Shown here piece by piece: positions 14,739-46,265 of a stretch of 64,000 bases of DNA; the first letter of the stretch is position 1; each line of letters starts with the position of its first letter. Source of the DNA: Agromyces sp. LHK192 (GTDB taxonomy: Bacteria; Actinomycetota; Actinomycetes; Actinomycetales; Microbacteriaceae); the NCBI RefSeq assembly GCF_004006235.1, contig NZ_CP034753.1, positions 1,302,001 to 1,366,000 on the forward strand. The letters run 5' to 3'. Position numbers and translations under genes: made by a program. The notes under the pieces were generated by a model that was not told where the DNA came from, ran no database searches, and saw only the letters and a list, made by a program, of their open reading frames with translations.

Positions 14739-17700
14739 TCAGCCGAGCACGCCCGCGCACGTCTCGCGGCGATCACCGATCGAGCCGAGATAGGTCGACC
14801 ACTCGGTGTCGGTCAGCTCGCGCCCGGCGAGCCGGCACGCGGCGCGGAAGTGGTCGGCGGGATCGAGCGTCCAATACGCCACCCCGTCGCCCAGGTTCAG
14901 GGCCATGCGCATCCCGTCGTGGCGGAGGTAGGCGGGCGGCGCGAACGGCGAGTCGGCCTGCAGCGGATCGCCGATCAACCGCCGCGTCTCCAGATCGAAG
15001 ATCGAGACCAGGTCCGACCGCGTCGGCGAGAGCAGGGTGCGACCCGGGGCATCCATCTGGATCGACCACCACGAATCACGGGAGCTGGGCAGGGCCCCGA
15101 ACGGCTCGAGGTCGTCGACCCCGCTGAGCAGCAGCTCCTCGGTGCCCGAACTCACGACCGTGCCGTCGGCGGTCACGAGCACCCCGCGCGCGTCGGGCAG
15201 GCCCTCGGCGACGAGATCTCCGGTCCGACCGTCGTAGACGAGCGTTGCGCCGGCCCCGGCGACGTCGTCCTGGTCGATCACGACGCGGTCGCCGTCGGTC
15301 GTGTCGGCGACGGCGAGCGGGTTGATCGCCGGCAGGTCGACGCCGGTGAGTCGCCCGGTCCGAACGTCGGCGAGGGCGACCGACGAGTAGGTCGCCGCCT
15401 CGCCGTAGAGCTCGCCGTCGTCGGTCGACGGATCGAGCATCACGACGTACGTGCGGTCCGGGTCGCGACTCGGGAACGCGAAGTCGGCCCCGGGCGGCAT
15501 CAGCGGGTCGCCGTACGAGCGACCGGTGCTCACGTCGAAGAAGGTGAGGATGCCGTCGCGCCGCGCCGCGACGACGCCCGGACCGGCCCAGGACGCGAGG
15601 CTGACGGCCGAGTCCATGCCGGTCTCCAGTGCCTCGTCGGCCTCCGGGTCCCAGAGGATCGATGGTGCGATGCCCCCGCCCGCCACGTCGCCGATCCGCT
15701 CGAGCATCAACGCGCTGCCGCCCGGGTCGAATCCGTTCACGACGAGGTGGCCGTCGGCGATCATCCTCGAGGCGGGACCGGACCCGTCGAGTCGCCACCG
15801 GCTCAGGCTCTCGCCCTGCACGGCGAACGCGACGAGGGTCATCGGGTCGGTCGCGACGTCGATCCGGTTCACCGGGCCCGCCTGCGGCTCGAACGCAGCG
15901 CCGGTCGGCTCGCCGTCCGCGAGCCCGAACTCGGTCACGACACCACCGCGCGAGCCGCACAGGACGGTGCCGCGGTCGAGGAGCACGGTCGCCGTGCGGC
16001 ACTGCCACGGGTCCTCCTGCGTCCAGGGGCGATACCAGACCACGGTGCCCTGATCGACGAGCACCCTGGCGAGGCCGCCCTCGCCGCTCGTCACCGCCGA
16101 CCCGTCGCCGATCGGGAAGATCCCCTCGTTCGCGGAACCGTCGGGGACCTCGATCGACCTGGTCGGCAGCAGCGTCGAGGCGTCGTACCAGGTGAGCCGG
16201 TCGCGGGAGCCGGCGAGGATCACCTCGTCGCCCCAGAAGACCGGACGGCCCGGGTCGGAGTCGACGTCCGGCCGGAATCCCGGGAAGACCGGGTTGGCGG
16301 CCGTGCGCAGGCGCATCGTCGGGAGCTCGATGACGTGCAGGCCGCCGTCCGGCCACGACGACATGACGAGCCGCTCCTCGGACGGCGAGAACCGGGGGAC
16401 GGTGATGTCGCGGGGCATGTGCACGACCTCGCCGACCTGGCGGCCCGAGTCGAGGTCGAACACCCTGACCTCGGTGTGGAGGGCGGGCTCTCCCGATTCG
16501 CGTCCCTCGAAGAGCCGCGACACCGAGGCGAGCGAGCCGTCGTCGCTGAGGGCGAGCATGGTGGGCGCCTCGAGGTTCATCCGGGGGAGTCCGCTGAAGA
16601 CGGTCCGCAGCTCCTCCCCGGTGTCGAGGTCGTGGACGACGCCGGTCGTGCCCCCGTCGCGGACCAGCAGCGCCTCCCGCGTGCCGGGGATCACCGCGCC
16701 CGCGGTGAGGCCGGCGACCGGGGTCGATCCCATGAATCCCCCGGCCGAGGTCATCGCGGACATGAGGGCCGCGCGGGTCCTCGGGTCGTCGGGCCAGCGT
16801 CGGTGCATCTCGGCGGCGATCAGGGCGGCGACGTCCCGATCCGTGCGCTGGAGTGCGATCGACCGGCTCGCGAGCGCCTCGACCTGTGCGTCCTCGGTGC
16901 TGCGGCGGGCAGTGTCGGCGCTCGAGACGGCGAGCACGGCGGCGAGCGAGGCGACCGCGAGCGCCGCGACCGTGCCGATGAGGGCGCCGCGAAGCCGGCG
17001 CCCGGTGCGACGTTGGCGCACGACCCGTCGTTCGAGATCGGCCACCTCGGCGCGGGCGGCGGCGTCCGACGCCTCGACGAACGCCGCTTCGAGTGCGGTG
17101 AGGTTCGGCTGCGAGCGATCCCGCCAGTCCAGCAGCGCCTGCAGCCGGGTGCCGCGGACGAGGTCGTCGGGCCTTCGGCCTCCTTCGTCCCAGTCGTCGG
17201 CCGCCGCGGTCAGTGCGACGAGGAGCCGGGTGCCCTCGGCATCCTCTTCGAGCCAGCCCGACAGGCGCGGCCAAGCCTCCGCGATCGATTCGTGGGCCAC
17301 GGCGATCGAGTCGCCCTCGGCGGTGATCAGCCGGGCGCGGTCGAGCCGGGCGATCAGCGCGCTCCGCTCGTCCTCTCCCTCAGCAGGCAGTCGCGTCCGA
17401 CGACGGACGGCCTGTCCGTCGGGCCCACGACCGACGAGCCGGAGGAAGGTCGTGCGGCAGAGCTCTCGGTCATGGGCGTCGAGGCGGTCGTACAGCCGAT
17501 CGGCGGATTGGGCGATCGCGCCCACGATGCCGCCGGATTCCTCGTACCCGGCGACCGTGAGCGTACGCCCCTCGCGACGCAGCCAGGTCTCGACGAGCGC
17601 ATGCGACAGGTGCGGGAGTGCGGCCGGTTGGCCGACCGCGTCGCGCAGGATCAGCTCGACGAGGCCGGGTTCGAGGCGGAGCCCTGCGCGTCGCGCCGGT

Positions 17701-18965
17701 TCCTCGATCGCGAGCCGCAGGTCGTCACGCGTCATCGGTCCGATCACCGAGACGCCGTCGGCGAGCAGCGGCGCCAGCTCCGGCGTCGAAGCGAGGGTGT
17801 CGAGGTAGTCGCTGCGCACCGTCGCCACGATCTGCGTGCCTGCCGAGACGGCGTCCGCGAGTCGCTCGCGGAATGCGGGTGCGGCGCCCGTCTCGGCGGC
17901 GAACCACTCCTCGAGCTGGTCGACCACCACCACGGGACCGTGGCGGTTCGCGGGTGCCTCGTCCAGCATGGCGAGCACCGCGGTTCCTGCGGCGTCGGGC
18001 CTGATCACCTCGACCCGACGGCCTCGGCGACGCAACTCCGGGACGACGCCGGCCAGCATCACCGACGACTTGCCCGAGCCCGACGGCCCGGTGATGACGA
18101 GCGTCGAGGTGGCGGACAGGCGGTCGAGCAGCACTGCGACCTCGCGATCGCGGCCGAAGAAGATCTCGGAATCGTCCGTCGTGAACGCCGACAGCCCCCG
18201 ATACGGGCAGGTGTCGTCACCCCGCTGGGGAGCCGCGATCGGCTCGAGTGAGGGATCCTGACGGAGGATGGCGCGCTCGAGCTCGACGAGCTCGCGTCCG
18301 GGTTCGATGCCGAGCTCGTCGTCGAGGCGTTCGCGTGCCGCGCGGATCGCGGCGAGTGCCTCCGCCTGCCGTCCGCACCGGTAGTTCGCCAGCGCCAGCG
18401 TCGCCCACCGGTGCTCGCGCAGCGGCGCCTCGCGCACCAGCCGCTCCGCGTCGGCGACGACGCTGCGATGCTCGCCGCAGGCGAGCCGCGCGTCGAGCAA
18501 CTCCTCCTCGGCGGAACGGCGAAGCTCGTCGAGTCGGTCGGCGGCGGCGACGGCGGGCTCCCAACGCGCCAGCTCGGGGTACGCGGTGCCGCGCCAGAGG
18601 GCGAGCGCACGCTGATAGACGTCGACCGCGCGGTCGGGTTCGTGCAGCGATGCCCGGGACCGGGCCTGCGCGACGAGCGTCTCGAAGCGGAGCGCATCGA
18701 CGGCATCGCGGTCGATGTGCAGCGCGTACCCGCCGGTTCCCGTGCTGACGATCTCCGGTCCGACCGATGCGCGAATACGGGCGACGGCGGTCTTCACCTG
18801 CTGACGCCAGGTCGCGGGCGGCGCGTCCGACCAGACGGCCTCCGCGAGCGCCGAGGCTTCGAGCGGAGCGGGAAACGCGACGGTGAGCGCGGCGAGCACC
18901 GCACGCTCGCGTGGGCTGAGTTCGGCGTCGCCGATCTCGAGCTCGCCCAGCACGCCGAGGTCCAT
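14739..18965 (-). CDS. Membrane-spanning BTAD-STAND-beta-propeller regulator (AfsR/SARP type)
   Basis: 1408 residues. Order: winged-helix DNA-binding domain (1-90), bacterial transcriptional activation domain of TPR-like repeats (about 91-240), PYRGLSAF...FFGRD linker (254-272), STAND NTPase with Walker A GPSGSGKSS (293-301) and Walker B VVVVDQLEEW (345-354), a basic helix, one membrane segment (about 658-680), then a long beta-propeller-like region (about 750-1390). Topology predicts DNA binding inside and the propeller outside. SARP proteins bind direct repeats spaced about one or two helical turns; GCGAGTACCG repeats lie upstream at 19016-19058. Targets probably include itself and the divergent VOC/lipoprotein operon. 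An ATG ten codons upstream is an alternative start. Confidence 0.85.
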   Translation of the reverse strand: MDLGVLGELEIGDAELSPRERAVLAALTVAFPAPLEASALAEAVWSDAPPATWRQQVKTAVARIRASVGPEIVSTGTGGYALHIDRDAVDALRFETLVAQARSRASLHEPDRAVDVYQRALALWRGTAYPELARWEPAVAAADRLDELRRSAEEELLDARLACGEHRSVVADAERLVREAPLREHRWATLALANYRCGRQAEALAAIRAARERLDDELGIEPGRELVELERAILRQDPSLEPIAAPQRGDDTCPYRGLSAFTTDDSEIFFGRDREVAVLLDRLSATSTLVITGPSGSGKSSVMLAGVVPELRRRGRRVEVIRPDAAGTAVLAMLDEAPANRHGPVVVVDQLEEWFAAETGAAPAFRERLADAVSAGTQIVATVRSDYLDTLASTPELAPLLADGVSVIGPMTRDDLRLAIEEPARRAGLRLEPGLVELILRDAVGQPAALPHLSHALVETWLRREGRTLTVAGYEESGGIVGAIAQSADRLYDRLDAHDRELCRTTFLRLVGRGPDGQAVRRRTRLPAEGEDERSALIARLDRARLITAEGDSIAVAHESIAEAWPRLSGWLEEDAEGTRLLVALTAAADDWDEGGRRPDDLVRGTRLQALLDWRDRSQPNLTALEAAFVEASDAAARAEVADLERRVVRQRRTGRRLRGALIGTVAALAVASLAAVLAVSSADTARRSTEDAQVEALASRSIALQRTDRDVAALIAAEMHRRWPDDPRTRAALMSAMTSAGGFMGSTPVAGLTAGAVIPGTREALLVRDGGTTGVVHDLDTGEELRTVFSGLPRMNLEAPTMLALSDDGSLASVSRLFEGRESGEPALHTEVRVFDLDSGRQVGEVVHMPRDITVPRFSPSEERLVMSSWPDGGLHVIELPTMRLRTAANPVFPGFRPDVDSDPGRPVFWGDEVILAGSRDRLTWYDASTLLPTRSIEVPDGSANEGIFPIGDGSAVTSGEGGLARVLVDQGTVVWYRPWTQEDPWQCRTATVLLDRGTVLCGSRGGVVTEFGLADGEPTGAAFEPQAGPVNRIDVATDPMTLVAFAVQGESLSRWRLDGSGPASRMIADGHLVVNGFDPGGSALMLERIGDVAGGGIAPSILWDPEADEALETGMDSAVSLASWAGPGVVAARRDGILTFFDVSTGRSYGDPLMPPGADFAFPSRDPDRTYVVMLDPSTDDGELYGEAATYSSVALADVRTGRLTGVDLPAINPLAVADTTDGDRVVIDQDDVAGAGATLVYDGRTGDLVAEGLPDARGVLVTADGTVVSSGTEELLLSGVDDLEPFGALPSSRDSWWSIQMDAPGRTLLSPTRSDLVSIFDLETRRLIGDPLQADSPFAPPAYLRHDGMRMALNLGDGVAYWTLDPADHFRAACRLAGRELTDTEWSTYLGSIGDRRETCAGVLG

Positions 18966-19015
18966 GCCCCGAGCTTCGACCCATCGCCCGGTCATCGTCA
19001 ACGACCGCGCGTGGG

Positions 19016-19058
19016 GCGAGTACCGCGCGAGTACCGCTGCGCACCGGGGCGAGTACCG
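19016..19058. promoter_or_regulatory. Three GCGAGTACCG direct repeats, candidate SARP-type box
   Basis: Identical 10-mers GCGAGTACCG start at 19016, 19027 and 19049, giving spacings of 11 and 22 bases, so all lie on one face of the helix. They fall in the 113-base divergent region between the BTAD regulator and the VOC gene. OmpR/SARP-type winged helices bind such direct repeats. Confidence 0.75.
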
Positions 19059-19078
19059 GTGCCGGCGACGGTGGACGC

Positions 19079-19516
19079 ATGCCACGATTCACCACCGCAG
19101 TCGGCAGCATGAGTGTCGACGACCTCACGACCGCGAGGGCGTTCTACGCCTGGGTCCTCGGTGCGGACGTCCGCGCGTTCGAAGCCGGCGGGCTCCTCGT
19201 CGCGTTCCCCGACGGTCACAGGATCCACGTGTACGACAAGGGGGCGCTGCACGAACCGGCGCCCTACACCGCCCTCAACTTCGTCGTCGACGACATCGGC
19301 CGCGCCGTCGACGACCTGATCGCCGCCGGCGTCGACACGAAGCCGTACGACGACGGCACGCTCCCCACCGACGACCGTGGGATCGGCAGGTCGGGAGCGA
19401 TGGCGAGGGCGTGGTTCCGCGATCCCGCGCGGAACCTGCTGAGCGTCGTCCAGCTGCCGCAGCACGTCGCGACCGACCCCGCCCTCGACGACCGACGTCG
19501 AGTCGACCACCCGTGA
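19079..19516 (+). CDS. VOC-family (glyoxalase/bleomycin-resistance fold) protein
   Basis: 145 residues with the beta-alpha-beta-beta-beta pairing of the vicinal-oxygen-chelate fold: SMSVDDLTTARAFYAWVLG, GGLLVAFPDGHRIHVYDKG, ALNFVVDDIGRAVDDLIAAG and a final ARAWFRDPARNLLSVVQLP strand. Both halves of a single module are present, so it probably dimerises to make the metal site. Substrate is unknown. It is the first gene of a three-gene unit with two propeller lipoproteins and diverges from the BTAD-STAND regulator. The start lies 21 bases after the third GCGAGTACCG repeat; no clear ribosome site is visible. Confidence 0.8.
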   Translation: MPRFTTAVGSMSVDDLTTARAFYAWVLGADVRAFEAGGLLVAFPDGHRIHVYDKGALHEPAPYTALNFVVDDIGRAVDDLIAAGVDTKPYDDGTLPTDDRGIGRSGAMARAWFRDPARNLLSVVQLPQHVATDPALDDRRRVDHP

Positions 19517-19526
19517 GGAGCATCCG

Positions 19527-20501
19527 ATGAACGACCAGGATTGAATCCGGCACCGCCCTCGGACGCTCGCGGCGCTCGTCGCGCTCGTCGCCGGCGTGTG
19601 CGCCCTGGGTGGCTGCGCCGCGGCCGGCCCGGCCGACCCGGCGACGACCGGTTCGCCGTCGGTCGAGCCGGCCGCGGCCGGCTCCGGCACGACCGACCTC
19701 ATGGTCTTCGGTGCCGCGGCGACCGGCGAGAACCCCGACCTCTTCACCATCCGGCTCGACGGCACCGAACGGGTGCAGCTCACCGACGACCCGGCATTCG
19801 ACGCGTGCGCGACCTTCGGGCCGGATGCCCGGACCGTGGTGTTCTGCAGCGATCGATCCGGAGCGTTCGAGATCTGGGCGACCGACATCGAGGGGGCGAC
19901 GGCGCGACAGCTCACGTCGATCGGCGGCTTCGCCACGTTCCCGGATGTCTCGCCCGACGGGCGCACCGTCGCGTTCTGCGCGAACGCCCCGGGCGAACCC
20001 GAAGAGACCGAGGACCTCTGGACCGTGGGCCTCGACGGCTCGGCACCCATCCGGATCACCGACACGCCGAAGGCATCCGACTGCTACCCGAGCTGGTCGC
20101 CCGACGGCGACAGGACCGCCTTCGTCTCATCGCGCGAGGACGGACCGAACGTCTGGGTCGTGAACGCCGACGGGTCGGGCGCCACCCGCCTCACGACCGA
20201 CAGCGGCGTCGCGGAGCAGCTGCCCGACTGGAGTCCGGACGGATCGAGCATCGCGTTCGCCGCCGACGGCGAGGTCTGGACGATGGACGCCGACGGCAGC
20301 GCCGCCGAACCGATCACGTCTGGCGTGGAGACCGAGTTCAGCCCGGCCTGGACCGGCGACGGGGATCGGATCGTCTACCGCGTCATCGACCGTGCTGCGG
20401 CGCGGAACGAGCTGTGGGTCATGTCGGCGGACGGCGGGGATGCACAGCGGATCCCGGGCGTCGAGGACGACGACGCGTTCCGACCGGCGGTGGCGTGGTG
20501 A
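19527..20501 (+). pseudogene. TolB-like beta-propeller lipoprotein with an in-frame stop in its leader
   Basis: A well-placed ATG at 19527 (GAGGAG five bases upstream, ten bases after the VOC stop) opens a frame reading MNDQD-stop-IRHRPRTLAALVALVAG, then the lipobox LGGC and a mature domain. TGA at 19542-19544 is codon 6; everything after it is intact in the same frame to 20501. The mature part has several PD40/TolB-type repeats (TDDPAFDACATFGPD, SPDGRTVAF, CYPSWSPDGDR, DWSPDGSSIAF). The only in-frame start after the stop, GTG 19596, would remove almost the whole signal peptide. So this is either an inactivated gene or a sequence error. Without the stop it would encode about 324 residues. Confidence 0.75.
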
Positions 20502-21544
20502 ACGGGATCCACGGTCGCGCAGCGCGCGGCCTGCTCGCGGCGATCGCCTCCGGTGCCCTCGTCGCCTCGCTCGTCGCCTGCGCGACGACCGCACCGGGAT
20601 CGACTGCGGCCAACTCGACGCCCGATTCGACGACCGACTCGACGACCGCGTCGACGCCGCCGACCGCCGACACGAGTGATCAGGTCGCCGACGTGTTCGA
20701 GATCCCCCACGCGGCAGGCTCGGTGGCCGTCTCCGGCGGAGCGGTGTGGGTGCTGCCGCATCTCGACCAGGTCGCGCTCCGGATCGACCCCGACACGGGC
20801 GAGGTGACCGAACTCCCGCTGCCGGGCGTCGGCGCCGAGATCACGGCCTCCGACACCGAGGTGTGGGCGTCCGTCTCGCATCCGTCGACGTTCGCGCCGA
20901 TCGGGCTCGTGCGCATCGACAGCACGACCTCGACGGTCACGCACGTCGTCGACGGCACCACGACTTTCCCGCACCTCATCGGTGACACGGTCTGGGCGCT
21001 GGCATCCGACGGCGTGATGCACGGGTACTCGCGCACCGACGCGACCGAGGTCGCGACCTTCGAGACCGGGGTGGTCGGCGGCGGTGCCGCCGAGGCCGGC
21101 GGATACCTGTGGCCGGGCAACCCCTCGGTGGGGTACCGGTTCGACCCCGCCGACGCCTCGATGCTCGACGTGACCGATCTCGGACTCGTCTCGCTCGCGG
21201 AGGCCGGCGGGCGGATCTGGGGCACGCCGTTCTCCGAGGCCGGGGGTGCACTGAGCTCGTACGAACCGGACGGAACCGACGTGCGCCGGGCCGACCTGCC
21301 CGAGGGCATGCTCGTATACCTCGACGCTGTCCCGATCGACGACGACCGGTTCTGGATCGTCGTCGCCGAGCGCGGTGCGGCCCCGCACTCGCAGGTCGCC
21401 GAGTTCGACGCGGTCACCGGTGAGATCGGGCAGGTGCTCACGTTCCCCGGCAAGCTCGAGAACGGCATCGACTCCGACGGCGACTGCGTCTGGGGCCCGA
21501 TCCTGCGCCAGCCGAAGGTCGTGCGGGTGTGTCCGACCGGGTGA
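20498..21544 (+). CDS. Beta-propeller-like lipoprotein
   Basis: 348 residues from GTG 20498, overlapping the previous stop by four bases (GTGA). The leader GLLAAIASGALVASLVAC ends in lipobox LVAC with Cys28, so the protein should be exported and lipid-anchored outside. A Ser/Thr/Pro/Asp-rich linker follows (about 30-65). The rest shows repeated beta-blade-like units such as VSGGAVWVLPHLDQVALRID, EVWASVSHPS, TVWALASDG and RIWGTPFSEAGG, similar to quinoprotein- or virginiamycin-B-lyase-like propellers; no catalytic residues are evident. With the preceding interrupted gene it suggests a surface propeller pair. Confidence 0.8.
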   Translation: MNGIHGRAARGLLAAIASGALVASLVACATTAPGSTAANSTPDSTTDSTTASTPPTADTSDQVADVFEIPHAAGSVAVSGGAVWVLPHLDQVALRIDPDTGEVTELPLPGVGAEITASDTEVWASVSHPSTFAPIGLVRIDSTTSTVTHVVDGTTTFPHLIGDTVWALASDGVMHGYSRTDATEVATFETGVVGGGAAEAGGYLWPGNPSVGYRFDPADASMLDVTDLGLVSLAEAGGRIWGTPFSEAGGALSSYEPDGTDVRRADLPEGMLVYLDAVPIDDDRFWIVVAERGAAPHSQVAEFDAVTGEIGQVLTFPGKLENGIDSDGDCVWGPILRQPKVVRVCPTG

Positions 21545-37442: not shown

Positions 37443-37538
37443 GCGATGAGGATCTGTCGGGTTGGCTCGCCGACTGGTTGACTGACGCCGATCGCGTATC
37501 CCCTTGGGGTGGGATGCGCACGGCGAAGGTACGAGGCG

Positions 37539-40500
37539 ATGACGACCCGAACGAATCCCGAGCACTCCCTTCCGACTCGACGCTCGCGGCGGGAGCGTGA
37601 ACATCGTCGCCGCCGCGGCGTGACCGCGGCGATCGCCTCGGCGACCATCGCCGCCATGCTGGCGCTCGGCCTGCCCACCGTCGCGCTCGCCGGCGAGACG
37701 CCGGTCGACCCGGCGACGACGTCGACCGAGACCGCGAAGACGGATGCCGGGACGGAGGCGACCGAGCAGACGTCGACGGAAGCCCCGGTCGAGGAGCCCG
37801 CGTCGGAGCCGCCGGCCGAGCCGCCGGTGGAGGAGCCGAAGACGGAGGCCCCGGTCGAGGAGCCTGCGACCGAGGAGCCGAAGACCGAGCCCCCTGCGGA
37901 GAACCAGCAGGCGCCGCCTGCCGATGAAGCGACCGTGCCCCCGGCCGACGACCTCGGCCCCGGACTGATCACGCCGATGGCCGTCTACCCGGCGGACACC
38001 GCGAACTGCACGACGAACTGCGCGAACCTCACGATCACCAACGACGTCAACGGCGGAACCGCGGGCCCGAACGACTGGGACCTCCACGCGATCCGCTCGA
38101 GCAACAGCGACAACTACAACTTCGTCTCGGGCGTGACGCGCTCAGTGCCCCGGAACGCGACGTACACGCTCTACGCCGACGCCGCGCCGGCCGGATACGT
38201 GCTCCAGGACTTCACCTGCACCACCGGTGGATCAGGTGGCGGCGACCCCACCTGGAACGAAGGCGCTCGCACCGTCACCTACAGCAACACGAATGGTTCG
38301 CCCACGCAGAAGTTCGCGAACTGCACGTTCGAGTGGGAGTTCATCGAGCCGGCCACCATCACCGTCCAGGTCGGCGGCGACCGCACCGGACCCGCGAGCG
38401 TGTCGGGTCTCGGCGACGTGCAGCTCGAGCTCTGGACGAACGTCGGCGGCGCCCCGGGCGCTCCGGTCGGCCAGCCCTGGTCGGTCTGCACCTCGACCGC
38501 CGCGGGCGTCTGCACCTTCACCGTGCCCCAGCCCACCGGCGCGACGTACTTCGTGATCCAGCGCACCCCGCCGAACGACGTCCCGGGCGGCTGGTTCTCG
38601 AACGACACCCTCGCCATCGGCACGTCGCCGGCTTCGGCGCCGTACCGGTTCATCACCGCGGCCGTCACCAGCGGCTCGTCGCAGACCTCCCAGGCGAACT
38701 TCATGATCGCCACGGGCAATGACAACAACCGGGCCTCCGGCGGCATCTGGCAGAACTCGCGCAACAACCCGCCAGGCGTCCAGCAGTGCGGCATCGACGT
38801 CGCGCTCATCATCGACCTCTCCGGGTCGGTCGCCCCGTACGAGACGCAGCTGAAGAACGCCGCGAAGGGCTTCGTCGATGCACTGACTGGCACCCCGTCG
38901 CGCGTCGGCATCTTCACGTTCAACAACGTCGCCCCGGCGAGCGTCGGGTCCAACCTCGGCATCACCGCGGTATCGACGCCGGCCGGCGGAAATACGGTGA
39001 AGAACCACATCGACGGGTTCGGCACCCCGGTCGAGGCGACCAACTGGGACCGCGGCATCTCGCAGGTCGCGGCGAGCGGCGTCTCCTACGACCTCGCCGT
39101 GATCCTCACCGACGGCAACCCGACGGTGTACGGCAACGATGAGGGCCCGGGCAACCGCACCCGATTCCGCGAGGTCGAGAACGGCATCTTCTCCGCCAAC
39201 GCCGTGAAGGCGCTCGGCACGCGCATGGTCGCGGTCGGCGTCGGTGCCGGCATCGGCGGCTCGCCCGACAACCTGGTCGCGATCTCCGGCCCGACGGTGA
39301 ACTCCGACTACTACCAGACCGACGACTACGCCGAGGCCGGCACGGCGCTGCGCAACCTCGCGCTCGGCGACTGCGAGGGTTCGGTGTCCGTCGTCAAGCA
39401 GGTCGTCGCCGCGGGCACGACCGGCGAGCAGAAGACCGGTGCCACCCCGACCCCGGGTTGGGAGTTCACGGCGCAGACGTCGTCGCCCGGCGTGACCCCG
39501 GCGTCGCAGGACGGCCTGACCGACGGCACCGGTGCGGTGAACTTCCCGCTCCAGTTCGCCACGTCGGGCACGACCGGCTCGGTCAACATCACCGAGACGG
39601 TGCAGCCGGGATACTCGATCGTGACCACGGGCGGCCAGAACGCGGTGTGTTCGCGCCTCGACAACGGGGCATCCGTGCCCGTGACCAACATCGGCGCGAC
39701 CGGGTTCACGGTCGGCGTGGATCCGACCGTCGCCGTCACCTGTACGGTGTGGAACCGGCCGCCCCAGCCGCAGGCCGACGTCACGGTCGAGAAGCAGTGG
39801 GTCGTCAACGGCCAGACGTTCCCCAACGGCAGCCAGCCGGTCGGCATCTCGGCGGGCCTGCTGCTCGACGGCAGCGCGCAGGACTGGGGCACGACGCGCA
39901 CCGGGTTCACCTCCGGCGGCACGGTGCAGATCAACGAGACGCCGGTGCAGTTCGGCAACCGCGACCTGTGCCGAGTGGTGAGCAGCCGCGTCACGCAGGC
40001 CAACGGCGCCGGTGTCGACGCCGCCCTGCCGTACTCGCCGACGCTGAACGCGGGGGCCAACACCTACCGGATCACCAACACGATCCAGTGCGACGCTCAA
40101 CTGACCCTGGAGAAGTCCGTCGCGAACGGCACATCGCCCGTCACCTCCTGGGTGCTCGACGCCGTCGCACCCGGGGGCGCCCTTCCCGGGCCGAACGGCG
40201 CGTCCGGAACGCCCGGGGCAACCGCCCCGGTGACCCCGAACGTGCGGTACGTGCTCACCGAGTCGGGTGACCCGCGCTACGTCCAGACGCTCACCGAGGG
40301 CGCCGAGCCGACCCCGCCGGCGACCGGCAGCTGGTTCTGCGTGCAGGTCGACGCCCAGGGCAACGTGATCCCCGGCTTCGCGGACGGCGCCAACGGTGGT
40401 GTCATCGTCTTCCTCGGACTCCGGGTGAAATGCACCGCGGTGAACCAGACCGCCCTGCTGACGTTGATCAAGGACACGACCAACGAGGACGGCATCCCCG

Positions 40501-43500
40501 GCGACCCGTCGGCGTGGAACCTGACCGCGACGCCGTCCGACACGCCGTCGGTGCCCGGCCTCGCGCCGGCGAACACCACGAGCGGCGGCATCGTGATGGT
40601 CCGGCCCGGCCACGCCTACACGATCTCCGAGAGCGGTGGACTCCCCGGCTGGGAGCAGACCGGCATCCAGTGCCGCGTCGGCAACTCGGGGCCGTTCGTG
40701 GACACCGACACGATCACGCTCCCCGCGCTCGGCGCGGGCACGTGCATCGTCTCCAACGACCCCATCCCGCCGAAGATCCGCCTCGTCAAGGAGGTGGTCG
40801 GCTCGAGCGTCTCCCCGACGAACTGGATGCTGAGCGCGACCCCGCTCGGCGGGACGCCCGTCGGACCGGTCGCCGGCACCACCGGCGGCTACGTCGAGAT
40901 CGAAGCAGGCCTGCCCATCACGCTGGCTGAGTCGACGAGCCTCCCCGACGCCGACCAGTTCCTGCCCGGCGTCTGGAACTGCACCCTGAACGGCGTACCC
41001 GGCGCGAACAACGGCACCAGCCTGCCCGCGCTCGACCCGGGCGACCAGGCGGACTGCGTCGTGACGAACACGCTCCGTCCGGTGGTGCCGACGATCACGA
41101 AGACCGCCGCGGTGCCCGTGCCCCAGGCGAACGGTTCGTGGAACATCACGTACGACATCGTCGCCACGAACCCGAGCGCCTTCGCGTCGCTGACCTACTC
41201 GCTCGAGGACCAGCTCGAATTCGGCTCCTCCGTCACGGTGAACAGTGCGAGCTACCAGCGCATCACGCCGACGCTCGGAGCGCTGACCGCATGGACCGTC
41301 CCGTTCGCGGACGTGCAGGAGTTCACCGGCGAGCCTGCGCTCGCACCGAACTCCTCGCACACCTGGCAGGTGACGGTGAACGCGACCGTCGCACCGGGGG
41401 CGAACTTCGGCGGGACGAGCCCGACCGCCTGCGACGGCGGCACCCCGGGCACCGTCGGGTTCCTCAACACCGCGACCATGACGGTCAACGAGACGCCGTA
41501 CGAGGCATCCGACTGCGTGCTGCCGGTCAAACCCACGATCGTCAAGGTCGGCGGCACCGCCGTCGACAACAACAACGGAACGTGGACGCTGCCGTACACC
41601 ATCACGGTTACCAACCCGTCCGCCACGACCGGCGTGATCTACGACCTGGAGGACGAGCTCGACCTGCCGGCCTCCGTGACGATCACCGACGGACCGGACA
41701 TCATCTCGGTGCCGCCGGGAGTGACCCCGGTCGCCGGCTGGAACGGCGGATCGAACACCCTGCTGGCCGATGACGTCTCCCTCGCGGGCGGCGCCGCCGC
41801 GCACGTGTACCAGATCACCGTCACGGTCGACATCGACGCCGAGGACGGCGCCTACCGCTGCCCGAGCGACGCCGGCCTGAACAACACGGCGACGCTGGTC
41901 AGCGGCAACCAGGAGCAGGATGCGACGGGCTGCGTGCAGGTGCTGCCGCCGACGATCACGCACGTGAAGTCGGTCGTGCCCGGCTCGGTGACCCAGGCCG
42001 CCGACGGCACCTGGAGCATCCAGTACCGCATCGACGTCACCAACGGCGGCGCGATCGGCGGCCCGTACTCGCTCGAGGACGAACTGCACTTCGGGGCGGG
42101 CATCGACCTCACCGGCGCCACCTACGCGGTGACGCTCAACGGCGGGCCGGCTCCGCTGCCGTGGGCCGGCTCCGGCGACCTCGTCGTCGACCGCTACCTG
42201 GCCGGCGCCGGCTCCGACGTCTGGCTGATCACGGTCTCCGGGATCGCCGTCGAGGGCCCCGAACTCACGCCCGCGCAGACCGCGTGCCCGGCCGATGACG
42301 CCGACGGAGCGTTCAACAACGCGGGCCTCCTCACGGTCGGCGGCGTCACGACGCCCGACACCGCCTGTGACGCGCCGAGCGCGCCGACGGTGGTCAAGAG
42401 CGGTGCGACCGCTGCCCAGCAGCCGGATGCCTCGTGGAACGTGAGCTACACGGTCACGGTCGACAACTCGCACCCGGGTGCGAAGCCGTCGTACTACTCG
42501 CTCACCGACACCCCGGCGTTCGCGAGCGGTGTGGTGTACAACACGGTCTCGATCAACGGGGCGGCCCCGGTGGCCTACCCCGGCGGACCGATCACCCTGG
42601 CGACGTCGGTGCCGATCCTCGCCGGCGACACCGCGGTGTACACCCTGACGTTCAACGTCACGGTTCCCGCCGGCCTTCCGGCCGGGGATCGCGAGTGCGA
42701 CGCCGAGGTCGGCCCCGGCAAGGGCTTCTTCAACTCCGTGCTGCTCACGAGCGGCGAGATCGAGCGCGAGTCCGACGACTGCACCTCGATCGAGGAGGGC
42801 GGACGCCCGACCGTCGAGAAGGACGACCCGACCGTGACGCAGGACGGCGACGGCCTGTGGACCCTCGTGTACGACATCACGGTGACCGGCAACTCCGATT
42901 TCGTGTCGACGTACACGCTGTCGGACACCCTGAACTTCGGTCCCTCGATCGACATCGAGTCGGCCGAGTGGTCGGGCGAGGGCGACACCGGCGAGTGGGT
43001 CGACCCCGAGGCCGACCCGACCGAGGTCATCGTCGGACCGGCTCCGAAGGTGATCGGCATCGACGCGGTGCACACGTACACCGTGACGGTCACGGCGAAC
43101 GTCGACGCCGCCGCATTCGAGGACCCGACGACGCTGACCTGCGACGCGACGGAGGAGGAGCCGAACGTCGGCTTCCTCAACACGGCGACGCTGACCAGTG
43201 ACGGCGTGCCGCAGTCCGACACCGGCTGCGACACCCCGGCCCGTCCGATCATCTCCAAGACGACGGACGGCGAGGTGACCGCGGTCGGTGACGGCTTCGA
43301 GGCGACGTACGAGATCACGGTGACGAACAGCAGCGCCGACCTGCAGGTCGTCTACGACCTGATCGACGAGCCCGACTTCGCCGGCGCGGTGACCATCACC
43401 GACCGCGAGGTCACGAGCGGCGACGTCACCGTGAACCCGGCCTGGAACGGCGCGAGCCCGACGAGCGATGTCATCGTCGAGGACCAGCCGCTCGCCGGCG

Positions 43501-46124
43501 GTGCGACGCACACCTTCGTCGTGACGATCGCATTCACGGTCGGCGAGGCGCAGGACGACCCGTCGCTGGTCTGCGAGGGCGAGGGCGGGCAGGGCCTGCT
43601 GAACACCGCGACCGTGGTGTCCGGCGGAAGCTGGTCCGACGACGCCTGCTTCGACGTGCCGGTGCTCGTCGAGGTCCTGAAGGACTGGGTCATCGACGGC
43701 GGTGAGCCGATCGCGTGGAACGACCCCGACCTGCCGGACGGCTTCACCGCGCAGGGCACCATCGACGGCACGAACGTCGACTGGGGCGTCGAGGAAGGAC
43801 CCTTCGCCATCGGCGACGAGGTCGCGGTCGGCGAGACGGATGTCACCGTGCCCGAGGGCTGCATCGTCGTGAACCCGAACGACAACGGCTCGGGCACGTA
43901 CACGCTCGACGCCACGGTCAACACGTACACGATCACGAACGAGGTCGAGTGCACGCAGACCGTCAACCTCGAGAAGATCGTCGACAACCAGTACGGCGGC
44001 GACGGCGTCGCGGCTGACTGGACCGTGTCGGCGTCGGCCGCCGACGACGGGTTCGGCGGCGCGGGAACCGCCTCGGGCCCGGTCGAGCTGAACGTCGGCT
44101 ACACCCTCAACGAGGTCTCGGTCCTCTGGGAGAACGGCGTGGAGTACGAGGTCGACGCGACCTGGACGTGCACCTCGCCGCAGGGCGAGGACGCATTCAC
44201 CCTGGTGAGCACGCCGGGTGCGGTGAGCGCCACGCTGACCGTGACCCAGCTGGGTGCGACCGTCGACTGCACGATCGAGAACGTCGACATCCCGCCGACG
44301 CTCGAACTGGTCAAGACCGTCGAGCCGGCCGAGATCGCCGCCGACTACCCGCCGACGCTGTGGACGCTCACGGCGACCGACGGCGACGTCGTCGCGCTCG
44401 AGGGCCAGGGCACCGCGGGCCCGGCCGAACTGGAGGCCAACACGGCCTACCTGCTGGGCGAGTCCGCGGACTTCCCGTTCTGGGAGCTCTTCGAGCCCGG
44501 ACCGTGGGTCTGTGTCGTGACCAACGACGGCGACGCGCCGGCCGACCTCGCGGTGGACGTCCTGACGCTGGAGCCCGGACAGCAGGTCCGATGCGATATC
44601 ACGAACACCGCGCCGGAGTTCGACGTCCAGATCGAGAAGGCGGCCGAACTCGCCGAGGGCGAGACGGCGGTCGAGTCGGGCGACGAGTTCGAGTGGGTGC
44701 TGACGGTCACGAACCTGGCCGACGCGGTCGACGGGCTCCTGGTCACCGACCAGATCGACCCGACGCTCGAGGTCACCGGCCCGGCCACGTTCAGCCCGGG
44801 CGCCGGCTGGACGCAGACCTCCGGTCCCACCGACAGCGCCTTCGCGGCGGAGTACACCGGGATCTACCCGGAGGGCCTGGTCACCGAGATCCGGATCCCG
44901 GTGCGGATGCTGCCGGAGCCGCCGATCGTGACCCCGCCGGCGGTCGACCCGAACGCGCCGCCGCCGGACGTGCCGCCGCTCGATGACACGCCCATCCCGA
45001 ACGAGGCGTGCGTGGAGTTCCCCGACCCGCTCACCGCGGAGGGCGACGGCATCGACTGCGCCGAAGCCGAGGTTCCGGTCAAGCGCGTCGCGCCCGCCGC
45101 GTACGTCCGATGCATCGCGGATGTCCCATGGCTGTACTTCAACGTGCAGGCGACGGACAACGTCGAGCCGGGTGACATCACCGTCACGTGGACCAGCGCC
45201 GACGGCTCGCTCACGCAGGTCGACACCATCCCGTGGGATGCCCGAGACGGCCGACTCCTGTGGCCGGGTGCGGAAGTCGACGGCAACGGCGTGCCGTTCG
45301 AGTTCCCGGGCTGGCGTCCGGTGACGGAGGCCGACCTCGCCGATCCGAGTTCGGTGGTGCCCGGTACCAGGTTCCTCGACCTGATCCTGGACGAGACGAC
45401 GCCGACGTTCCCGTGGCGCGGTGAGACCTACACGCCGAGCGGTGACCCCGCGAACCCGTGGATCATCACCAAGGAGCCGCTCTCGGTGACGTTCTCGGTG
45501 AACCCGTCGCAGACGGTGCTCGCCGCCTACCCGCAGGCGCTGCCGACCTGCGCGATCGAGCGGCCGCCGCTGCTCGACATCGAGAAGACGTCCAGCGTGA
45601 CGACGGCGAAGCCGGGATCCACGTTCGACTACACGCTCCAGGTGACGTCGACCGGCATCGGTGCCGCCGACCCGGTGACCCTGTTCGACGAGATCCCGGC
45701 CGACCTCAAGGTCGACGCGATCACGACGGAGCCGGCTCCCGCGTTCCCGCGCTGGGAGAACTGCGAGGTGACCGGCAAGGACGGAGCCGGCTACGGCGGA
45801 GCACTCCGATGCGACCTGCTGGGCGTGCTCGGGCCGAACATCACCACGGCGCCACCGGTGACCCTGAAGGTGACCCTGAGGCCCACGGCGAAGGTGACGT
45901 CGATCGTGAACACGGGAGAGGTCTGCTACGGCAACCAGGACTTCCCCGACGACCCGATCGTCTGCGCCGACTCGTCGGTGACCGTCTCGGTGCCGCAGCC
46001 CATGGCGGCGACCGGCTTCGCCGGCGGACCGTGGGTCTGGGCGGGCGCGGGCCTGCTGCTGCTGGGCGGCATCGCCGTCGTGATCGCGATCAGCCGGCGA
46101 CGGAGAGGGGACGCCGCCGGATGA
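37539..46124 (+). CDS. Giant secreted adhesin with VWA domain and DUF11-like repeats, 2861 residues
   Basis: ATG 37539 (GAGG upstream). Basic N-terminus, signal peptide about 28-55, then a Glu/Pro/Thr-rich stalk to about 140. A von Willebrand A domain at about 418-607 has the MIDAS residues DLSGS and LTDGN, so metal-dependent ligand binding is possible. Prealbumin-like/SpaA-type units follow (about 607-1180), then six Cys-bracketed DUF11-like repeats of about 140 residues (starting near 1182, 1330, 1469, 1615, 1755 and 1901), more prealbumin-like units, and a C-terminal domain (about 2514-2670) shared with the preceding protein. The end is MAATGF, a hydrophobic helix and RRRRGD. Probably a wall-anchored adhesin. 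Confidence 0.88.
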   Translation: MTTRTNPEHSLPTRRSRREREHRRRRGVTAAIASATIAAMLALGLPTVALAGETPVDPATTSTETAKTDAGTEATEQTSTEAPVEEPASEPPAEPPVEEPKTEAPVEEPATEEPKTEPPAENQQAPPADEATVPPADDLGPGLITPMAVYPADTANCTTNCANLTITNDVNGGTAGPNDWDLHAIRSSNSDNYNFVSGVTRSVPRNATYTLYADAAPAGYVLQDFTCTTGGSGGGDPTWNEGARTVTYSNTNGSPTQKFANCTFEWEFIEPATITVQVGGDRTGPASVSGLGDVQLELWTNVGGAPGAPVGQPWSVCTSTAAGVCTFTVPQPTGATYFVIQRTPPNDVPGGWFSNDTLAIGTSPASAPYRFITAAVTSGSSQTSQANFMIATGNDNNRASGGIWQNSRNNPPGVQQCGIDVALIIDLSGSVAPYETQLKNAAKGFVDALTGTPSRVGIFTFNNVAPASVGSNLGITAVSTPAGGNTVKNHIDGFGTPVEATNWDRGISQVAASGVSYDLAVILTDGNPTVYGNDEGPGNRTRFREVENGIFSANAVKALGTRMVAVGVGAGIGGSPDNLVAISGPTVNSDYYQTDDYAEAGTALRNLALGDCEGSVSVVKQVVAAGTTGEQKTGATPTPGWEFTAQTSSPGVTPASQDGLTDGTGAVNFPLQFATSGTTGSVNITETVQPGYSIVTTGGQNAVCSRLDNGASVPVTNIGATGFTVGVDPTVAVTCTVWNRPPQPQADVTVEKQWVVNGQTFPNGSQPVGISAGLLLDGSAQDWGTTRTGFTSGGTVQINETPVQFGNRDLCRVVSSRVTQANGAGVDAALPYSPTLNAGANTYRITNTIQCDAQLTLEKSVANGTSPVTSWVLDAVAPGGALPGPNGASGTPGATAPVTPNVRYVLTESGDPRYVQTLTEGAEPTPPATGSWFCVQVDAQGNVIPGFADGANGGVIVFLGLRVKCTAVNQTALLTLIKDTTNEDGIPGDPSAWNLTATPSDTPSVPGLAPANTTSGGIVMVRPGHAYTISESGGLPGWEQTGIQCRVGNSGPFVDTDTITLPALGAGTCIVSNDPIPPKIRLVKEVVGSSVSPTNWMLSATPLGGTPVGPVAGTTGGYVEIEAGLPITLAESTSLPDADQFLPGVWNCTLNGVPGANNGTSLPALDPGDQADCVVTNTLRPVVPTITKTAAVPVPQANGSWNITYDIVATNPSAFASLTYSLEDQLEFGSSVTVNSASYQRITPTLGALTAWTVPFADVQEFTGEPALAPNSSHTWQVTVNATVAPGANFGGTSPTACDGGTPGTVGFLNTATMTVNETPYEASDCVLPVKPTIVKVGGTAVDNNNGTWTLPYTITVTNPSATTGVIYDLEDELDLPASVTITDGPDIISVPPGVTPVAGWNGGSNTLLADDVSLAGGAAAHVYQITVTVDIDAEDGAYRCPSDAGLNNTATLVSGNQEQDATGCVQVLPPTITHVKSVVPGSVTQAADGTWSIQYRIDVTNGGAIGGPYSLEDELHFGAGIDLTGATYAVTLNGGPAPLPWAGSGDLVVDRYLAGAGSDVWLITVSGIAVEGPELTPAQTACPADDADGAFNNAGLLTVGGVTTPDTACDAPSAPTVVKSGATAAQQPDASWNVSYTVTVDNSHPGAKPSYYSLTDTPAFASGVVYNTVSINGAAPVAYPGGPITLATSVPILAGDTAVYTLTFNVTVPAGLPAGDRECDAEVGPGKGFFNSVLLTSGEIERESDDCTSIEEGGRPTVEKDDPTVTQDGDGLWTLVYDITVTGNSDFVSTYTLSDTLNFGPSIDIESAEWSGEGDTGEWVDPEADPTEVIVGPAPKVIGIDAVHTYTVTVTANVDAAAFEDPTTLTCDATEEEPNVGFLNTATLTSDGVPQSDTGCDTPARPIISKTTDGEVTAVGDGFEATYEITVTNSSADLQVVYDLIDEPDFAGAVTITDREVTSGDVTVNPAWNGASPTSDVIVEDQPLAGGATHTFVVTIAFTVGEAQDDPSLVCEGEGGQGLLNTATVVSGGSWSDDACFDVPVLVEVLKDWVIDGGEPIAWNDPDLPDGFTAQGTIDGTNVDWGVEEGPFAIGDEVAVGETDVTVPEGCIVVNPNDNGSGTYTLDATVNTYTITNEVECTQTVNLEKIVDNQYGGDGVAADWTVSASAADDGFGGAGTASGPVELNVGYTLNEVSVLWENGVEYEVDATWTCTSPQGEDAFTLVSTPGAVSATLTVTQLGATVDCTIENVDIPPTLELVKTVEPAEIAADYPPTLWTLTATDGDVVALEGQGTAGPAELEANTAYLLGESADFPFWELFEPGPWVCVVTNDGDAPADLAVDVLTLEPGQQVRCDITNTAPEFDVQIEKAAELAEGETAVESGDEFEWVLTVTNLADAVDGLLVTDQIDPTLEVTGPATFSPGAGWTQTSGPTDSAFAAEYTGIYPEGLVTEIRIPVRMLPEPPIVTPPAVDPNAPPPDVPPLDDTPIPNEACVEFPDPLTAEGDGIDCAEAEVPVKRVAPAAYVRCIADVPWLYFNVQATDNVEPGDITVTWTSADGSLTQVDTIPWDARDGRLLWPGAEVDGNGVPFEFPGWRPVTEADLADPSSVVPGTRFLDLILDETTPTFPWRGETYTPSGDPANPWIITKEPLSVTFSVNPSQTVLAAYPQALPTCAIERPPLLDIEKTSSVTTAKPGSTFDYTLQVTSTGIGAADPVTLFDEIPADLKVDAITTEPAPAFPRWENCEVTGKDGAGYGGALRCDLLGVLGPNITTAPPVTLKVTLRPTAKVTSIVNTGEVCYGNQDFPDDPIVCADSSVTVSVPQPMAATGFAGGPWVWAGAGLLLLGGIAVVIAISRRRRGDAAG

Positions 46125-46230
46125 CCGGGCAGTAGGGCGGTGGCCTGACGAAGGCCGCCGCCCTGGGCCCCCGACGAGGCGCGGCTGGGGGGCCGCAGCT
46201 CGGGTGGCCAGAGGGGGACACCCGGGAACG

Positions 46231-46265
46231 ATGAAGGGCCGGTGCTCGTGGCACCGGCCCTTCAT
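46231..46265. terminator. Bidirectional terminator between surface gene and sdhB
   Basis: Perfect 15-base-pair stem ATGAAGGGCCGGTGC (46231-46245) with its complement at 46251-46265 and loop TCGTG. The AT-rich stem ends give an A/T run on both strands. It serves two converging genes. Confidence 0.88.

Follow-up and report, generated by a model that had tools for sequence, protein, structure and literature searches.

What does a regulator control, and where does it take its signal from, when a DNA-binding head, an NTPase and a membrane helix lie in one chain? The question is raised by a gene in the window, the 64,000-nucleotide stretch of Agromyces sp. LHK192 DNA analyzed here (contig NZ_CP034753.1, positions 1,302,001 to 1,366,000). 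The product, hereafter the regulator, joins a SARP-type head to a STAND-family NTPase, a membrane helix and predicted beta-propellers, and its gene stands divergently to an operon for a VOC/glyoxalase-family protein and two lipoprotein-like products, LIPO1 and LIPO2 (Table 1). With moderate confidence, we interpret it as a membrane-spanning, one-component SARP-STAND activator of its divergent partner, which in related loci is usually an exported protein. The winged helix-BTAD head and the nSTAND1 domain would lie inside the cell, one helix would cross the membrane, and the propellers would face outward.

We began with the protein. Its N-terminus has the winged helix and BTAD that mark SARPs of the AfsR family: the BTAD scored above the Pfam cutoff, the winged helix (residues 14-74) matched Trans_reg_C below it, and 223 residues of the head aligned with AfsR (8hvr) at E 2e-24. 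Against the AfsR equivalog model of NCBIfam (NF053617) the regulator scored 126 bits, below the cutoff of 1430. The nSTAND1 domain is essentially full-length, covering profile positions 1-378 of 379 in Pfam. Residues 662-680 reach a Kyte-Doolittle value of 2.48; elsewhere 1.6 is exceeded only at residues 22-40 (1.62). Hydropathy predicts a single membrane helix in the same region, between the DNA-binding head and the sensor part, in 27 of 27 aligned sequences including that of the window; weaker hydrophobic peaks occur elsewhere in some of them, the highest (2.23) within the NTPase of L058. The regulator has seven lysines or arginines in the 15 residues preceding the helix and two following it, and the 27 sequences have 4-8 ahead and 1-4 behind. 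This charge bias, present in 27/27, predicts an N-in, C-out topology.

An AlphaFold2 model of residues 641-1408, built from a 17-row alignment (pLDDT 85.7, pTM 0.79), opens with a long helix, after which come 51 strands in approximately 13 four-stranded blades, which we read as two propellers. Foldseek returned 1885 PDB matches to this model at E ≤ 0.001; the top matches are presumably repeat-propeller proteins, judging in part by title, and Apaf-1 stood at rank 50. Whole-model TM-scores were only ~0.3, indicating that the likeness is local and that the propeller type alone is matched. Four cysteines in the propeller part (C989, C1003, C1377 and C1403) are invariant in the 27 sequences, and C1377 and C1403 are also invariant in the wider 17-row alignment. 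The number of cysteines is even in the propeller part of 25/27 sequences, versus 14/27 for the cytosolic part, as a disulfide-bonded outer domain would show. We therefore consider it likely that the propellers lie outside the membrane. A preliminary description of the locus had proposed one protein with a BTAD, a STAND NTPase, a membrane segment and a single outer propeller. Pfam and the hydropathy of residues 662-680 bear out the first three parts, and the charge bias and the four invariant cysteines favor a predicted inside N-terminus and outside propeller region; in place of the single propeller we read two.

We then turned to the DNA between the divergent genes. Between the regulator and VOC genes lie 113 bp that contain GCGAGTACCG three times as direct repeats in 11-bp phase, and the window holds no further exact copy. 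None of 20000 simulated 113-bp sequences held any 10-mer three times. Viewed toward the regulator, the operator presents GGTAC at 0, +22 and +33. The pattern GGTAYN17GGTAYN6GGTAY had 28 exact sites, distributed over 16 of 60 Agromyces genomes, compared to 1 for the reversed control. Twenty-two sites stand upstream of regulators of the family, one of which has two overlapping sites. The remaining 6 adjoin extra genes for small exported proteins, and no regulator is read outward from the far side of these sites; five of these genes sit just beyond the 3' end of a regulator. The 0/+22/+33 operator or variants of it are also found beside relatives in Microbacterium, Nocardioides and metagenome-assembled genomes (MAGs). 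The strict three-site form (score ≥13.5) was present in 27 of 60 scored rows, and most of the others had variants, such as GATATCC, or a spacing one base shorter (L066, L072, L077). An exact GGTATC version of the operator gave 2 sites in 396 genomes of the order, with 0 for the reversed control; because the half-sites vary, this version is too strict to estimate prevalence.

The placement of the repeats agrees with that of SARP sites. As given in the portions of these papers drawn on here, SARPs have a repeat 8 bp upstream of the -10 box (PMC7040171), and the 22-bp AfsR box, centered at -29.5, comprises two 11-bp repeats (PMC10936776). Assuming that transcription starts at the VOC ATG, the proximal repeat in the window spans -30 to -21 and is separated by 8 bp from GACGGT, placing direct repeats in 11-bp phase at the SARP distance from a -10 box that is itself predicted. 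Among 30 sites (the 28 from Agromyces and 2 others), the divergent start codon was 21-22 nt away in 26; by eye, 25 of these 26 divergent products are exported proteins and 1 is the VOC protein of the window. The 18 divergent promoters with an ATG at exactly 21 nt had A-11 in 17 cases, T-7 in 16 and C-1 in 18. The divergent promoter looks like a leaderless -10 box in which a repeat replaces the -35 box. These sequence features make it quite likely that the regulator attaches to the repeats and turns on the divergent operon.

The relatives indicate what such an operon usually encodes. At least 23 of the 59 other Agromyces genomes have a match to the regulator at E ≤ 1e-200; scoring took in the 4 best first-look candidates of each genome, and further copies may be missed. 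Among the matches listed, relatives also occur in Microbacterium, Demequina, Nocardioides, Knoellia, and Frankiaceae and Acidimicrobiales MAGs. This wider set amounts to at least 79 loci, from which 24 upstream regions were read and 20 scored; the others are mostly partial protein matches. A divergent open reading frame (ORF) with a signal peptide or lipobox was present within 330 bp of 36 of 41 regulators, compared to 21/197 control genes and 10/74 controls with a divergent neighbor. The same was true of 10 of 14 named loci. Export was called in both sets by a home-made signal-peptide rule. The 14 named loci omit L070 and L074 (their genomes appear as G057 and G059), L080 (start outside the sequence at hand), the operator-less L085, L086, L087, L090, L093 and L110, and the unscored L102 and L117.

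Many partners are ~60-170 aa long with short tandem repeats. Internal repeats were detected at p ≤ 0.01 (100 shuffles) in 20 of 39 partners tested, the remaining 19 lying above the threshold, and none of 7 small exported proteins tried had a Pfam family above cutoff. Larger partners are shared across taxa: that of L072, from a Frankiaceae MAG, is 55% identical to that of L061, and those of L060 and L063 match the L065 ORF at 46-54%, with a weak match from L077 (Demequina). Two larger exported families (L060/L063/L065/L077 and L061/L072) thus recur beside regulators across genera. In Microbacterium, L069 and L071 have divergent exported products of 52 aa, peptide-signal-like in size, with near-identical tails ending SARSSMLFR. 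Operator-bearing secreted-protein genes at L035 13326 and L037 13237 have repeats around TDKTLRQVMEADR and no regulator on the other side of the site. Collectively, the predicted divergent partner of the regulator's relatives is usually exported and often built of repeats.

The head and the operator also covary. Residue 59 of the regulator aligns with T88 of AfsR, which, in the structure of AfsR on DNA, hydrogen-bonds a base. In 51 regulators, threonine at this position occurred with a regulator-side half-site of GGTACT or GATACT (6/6, window included), asparagine with GATATC (7/7), alanine with GGTATG or GGCATG (21/25), isoleucine with GGTATC or GGTTTC (6/7) and glycine with GGTATC (3/4). The observed information between residue 59 and half-site bases 5-6 was reached in 0/5000 permutations (n=51), and this residue was the most informative on operator bases 5-6 of the first 110 positions (n=49). 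The set of 51 omits L070, L074, L076, L079, L085, L086, L090 and L093, as well as L056, dropped because no -35 box was found there; L065 and L084, with no recognizable operator, were removed from the set of 49.

Several observations weigh against an outward-facing activator of an exported partner. For five of the 41 regulators, the window's included, no exported partner was detected, and L065, counted among the 36 positives, looks spurious. The operator was not seen at the named relatives L076, L079, L084-L087, L090, L093 and L110, and a search of the window's own genome with 3 mismatches gave 1 site, that of the window, versus 5 for the reversed control, so loose matches reflect chance. The residue-59 code is not one-to-one, as GGTATC is found with I, G, H and S and twice with A. 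Before correction, operator distance correlates to nearly the same degree with the winged helix, BTAD, STAND and propeller parts (0.40-0.43; 32 regulators); in the same set the partial r was 0.18 for the winged helix given the propeller (1/2000 permutations) and 0.115 for the propeller given the winged helix (54/2000). Related genomes are non-independent samples, and relatedness inflates the covariation tests. The C989/C1003 pair varies in the wider 17-row alignment. Good -35 and -10 boxes precede the regulator gene itself, and the operator could therefore serve autoregulation. Finally, in the window itself the first divergent gene, VOC, lacks a signal peptide, the LIPO1 start is broken (ATG 19527 meets an in-frame TGA five codons on), and neither LIPO1 (E ≤ 1e-20) nor LIPO2 (E ≤ 1e-3) has a relative in the 59 other Agromyces genomes.

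These last points concern the divergent operon, which had been described as encoding a VOC protein and two propeller lipoproteins. The VOC assignment stands. LIPO1 has five PD40 stretches in Pfam, and the next in-frame start after the interrupted one, GTG 19596, falls past most of the signal peptide. A Shine-Dalgarno-like GAGGAG precedes the ATG, and between 19527 and 19596 the signal-peptide frame runs past the TGA without a usual start; the interruption would be due to decay or to an assembly error. A propeller fold is unsupported for LIPO2, which had a single sub-cutoff match in Pfam, none above cutoff in NCBIfam, a best PDB match of E 0.23 (streptogramin lyase) and an AlphaFold2 pLDDT of 41.5. 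Relatives of VOC, LIPO1 and LIPO2 were absent from 33 stretches taken around related regulators in 28 genomes (some stretches continue one array and some end at contig ends). Although 53 of 60 Agromyces genomes, the window's own included, have VOC relatives, none of these lies in the stretches. The preliminary description had made its pairing of regulator and lipoproteins depend on a conserved neighborhood in related genomes; none was found, which refutes that part on the description's own terms. What remains is a broader form, in which a divergent protein predicted to be exported (36/41) usually stands under a common SARP-type operator. LIPO1 and LIPO2 appear to be local cargo, since no relatives were found and the LIPO1 frame is interrupted. 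The target in the window would then be the VOC-LIPO1-LIPO2 operon, whose operator is the usual one for the family but whose cargo is not.

The window copy could alternatively be a relic: a transposed regulator that lost its original exported partner and captured VOC and the lipoproteins by chance. Many Agromyces copies, often in tandem arrays, occupy a home region flanked by genes that we take to be serA and ilvC; these are gene clusters 5 and 7, which occur in 15 and 13 of the 33 stretches. The window copy lies outside this region. Of 20 candidates in its own genome 4 were scored, and among these none but the window copy matched over the full length; 16 kb around its own ilvC contained no regulator among the best matches. 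This setting, together with the broken start of LIPO1 and the presence of LIPO1 and LIPO2 in 0/59 other Agromyces genomes, fits a relic. However, nothing is missing from the operator, whose three repeats are identical and fit T59, and the VOC -10 box retains A-11, T-7 and C-1; we find this origin rather doubtful. Elsewhere, regulator copies are split across two reading frames (L035, L044, L046, L062, L064 and L065), which suggests frequent decay in arrays.

It is decidedly unlikely that the helix only anchors the protein and that the propellers are cytoplasmic, sensing an intracellular ligand as in MalT or Apaf-1. SARP-STAND proteins of known function are not known to be other than cytosolic, and Apaf-1 is among the structural matches, but cytoplasmic propellers are at odds with the N-in charge bias in 27/27 sequences and with invariant propeller cysteines whose number is even in 25/27.

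An operator that serves autoregulation only (perhaps repression) of the regulator gene, shared with the divergent genes by chance or hitchhiking, is improbable. Regulator promoters have good -35 and -10 boxes, with the last repeat 8 or 18-19 bp before the -35 box in 39 of 60 rows, and the window regulator gene, with TTGACG and GAAGCT, is predicted to be leaderless as well. By contrast, at six operator sites an exported-protein gene is served while no regulator stands on the other side, and the divergent promoter has a conserved -10 box, no -35 box and the SARP distance. We give just as little weight to an nSTAND1 conflict or defense system with the exported partner as effector or inhibitor: nSTAND1 is named in counter-invader systems in the part of PMC8195603 drawn on here, and the tandem arrays and split copies point to rapid turnover, but PADLOC yielded just two weak P-loop matches (E 0.00035 and 0.0037) and no model match, and the N-terminus is of a transcription-activator type and has an operator that fits it.

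Table 1 Features of the regulator locus, in window coordinates.
Feature	Position	Strand	Remark
Regulator gene	14739..18965	-	1408 aa; predicted leaderless start ATG 18965
Winged-helix DNA-binding domain, residues 1-88	18702..18965	-	T59 aligned with AfsR T88
BTAD, residues 89-234	18264..18701	-	PF03704, E 2.1e-33
nSTAND1 NTPase, residues 254-599	17169..18206	-	PF20703, E 2.9e-97
Membrane helix core, residues 662-680	16926..16982	-	Hydropathy
Predicted propeller region, residues ~744-1366	14868..16736	-	51 strands, read as two propellers
C-terminal motif with C1377 and C1403	14757..14837	-	Cysteine conservation
Predicted regulator -10 box GAAGCT	18972..18977	-	6 nt before ATG
Predicted regulator -35 box TTGACG	18996..19001	-	Sequence
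Operator repeat 1, GCGAGTACCG	19016..19025	+	Distal to VOC
Operator repeat 2, GCGAGTACCG	19027..19036	+	11 bp from repeat 1
Operator repeat 3, GCGAGTACCG	19049..19058	+	22 bp from repeat 2; end 8 bp before predicted VOC -10 box
Predicted VOC-operon -10 box GACGGT (A-11, T-7, C-1), leaderless	19067..19072	+	Sequence
VOC/glyoxalase-family gene, 145 aa	19079..19516	+	Glyoxalase Pfam E 2.6e-05; at exported-partner position of relatives
LIPO1, PD40/TolB-like lipoprotein frame	19527..20501	+	Pfam; in-frame TGA near ATG; open from GTG 19596
LIPO2, lipoprotein-like, no family	20498..21544	+	Signal peptide and lipobox by eye

Farther along the window, a 2871-aa ORF on the plus strand (37509-46124) has SpaA_2 prealbumin-like domains and is likely a giant surface protein; a 2677-aa ORF on the minus strand (38232-46265) is its apparent antisense shadow.

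If the regulator is a membrane activator of its divergent partner, an outer signal, possibly the exported partner itself, would control its NTPase. Our tentative proposal is that an envelope event, acting through the propellers, switches the NTPase, and that the exported partner joins the signal as ligand, antagonist or effector. In AfsR, ATP binding lifts inhibition by the C-terminal domains, according to the portion of PMC10936776 used here, and by analogy this relief is a plausible model for the regulator. A more speculative extension, which we regard as unlikely, is that each receptor's outer propellers read the repeat-built exported protein or lipoprotein that it activates. Tandemly arrayed pairs, each bearing a repeat type and an operator variant of its own, would then give Agromyces strains polymorphic ligand-receptor sets, operator specificity residing largely in residue 59. 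Such private channels, if real, would serve self-sensing, kin recognition or envelope monitoring.

How does this arrangement compare with known systems? AfsR-afsS, with its large Streptomyces SARP, shares the SARP head, the STAND NTPase, the direct repeats in 11-bp phase and the promoter spacing, and the proximal repeat in the window occupies the place of AfsR's downstream repeat. The afsS gene encodes a small repeat-bearing product beside its activator, as in the relatives here. AfsR is cytosolic and is described as having NOD and TPR domains, whereas the regulators here have nSTAND1, a membrane helix, propellers and exported partners. CadC and ToxR are described as combining a DNA-binding domain, one membrane helix and a sensor part in one protein. 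Their sensor part lies on the outer side, and they are not known to have a BTAD, an NTPase or a propeller. The regulator differs from them in its SARP-type direct-repeat operator and, in relatives, its divergent exported partner; the likeness is one of working only, and the CadC-like logic suggested earlier for the regulator is a fair analogy. Apaf-1 is eukaryotic and cytosolic and is not known to bind DNA or to have a membrane helix. Its STAND NTPase is joined to WD40 repeats (PMC7159879), the point in which it resembles the regulator. The nSTAND1 proteins of PMC8195603 belong to the same NTPase family; the portion of that paper used here places them in a counter-invader setting and does not describe a DNA-binding head, an operator or an exported partner. 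No membrane SARP was found among the titles and abstract openings that searches of an open-access library listed, a scope that leaves out most papers of subscription journals and bioRxiv, and the SARP review PMC10972967 uses the words membrane and transmembrane zero times in its main text.

SARPs have been studied mainly as switches of antibiotic clusters. A membrane-spanning SARP class with Apaf-1-like parts, an operator that can be read and an exported partner would tie the envelope to transcription in actinobacteria and would provide STAND regulators with an outside input open to experiment, and the relation between residue 59 and the operator could help predict the targets of other SARPs.

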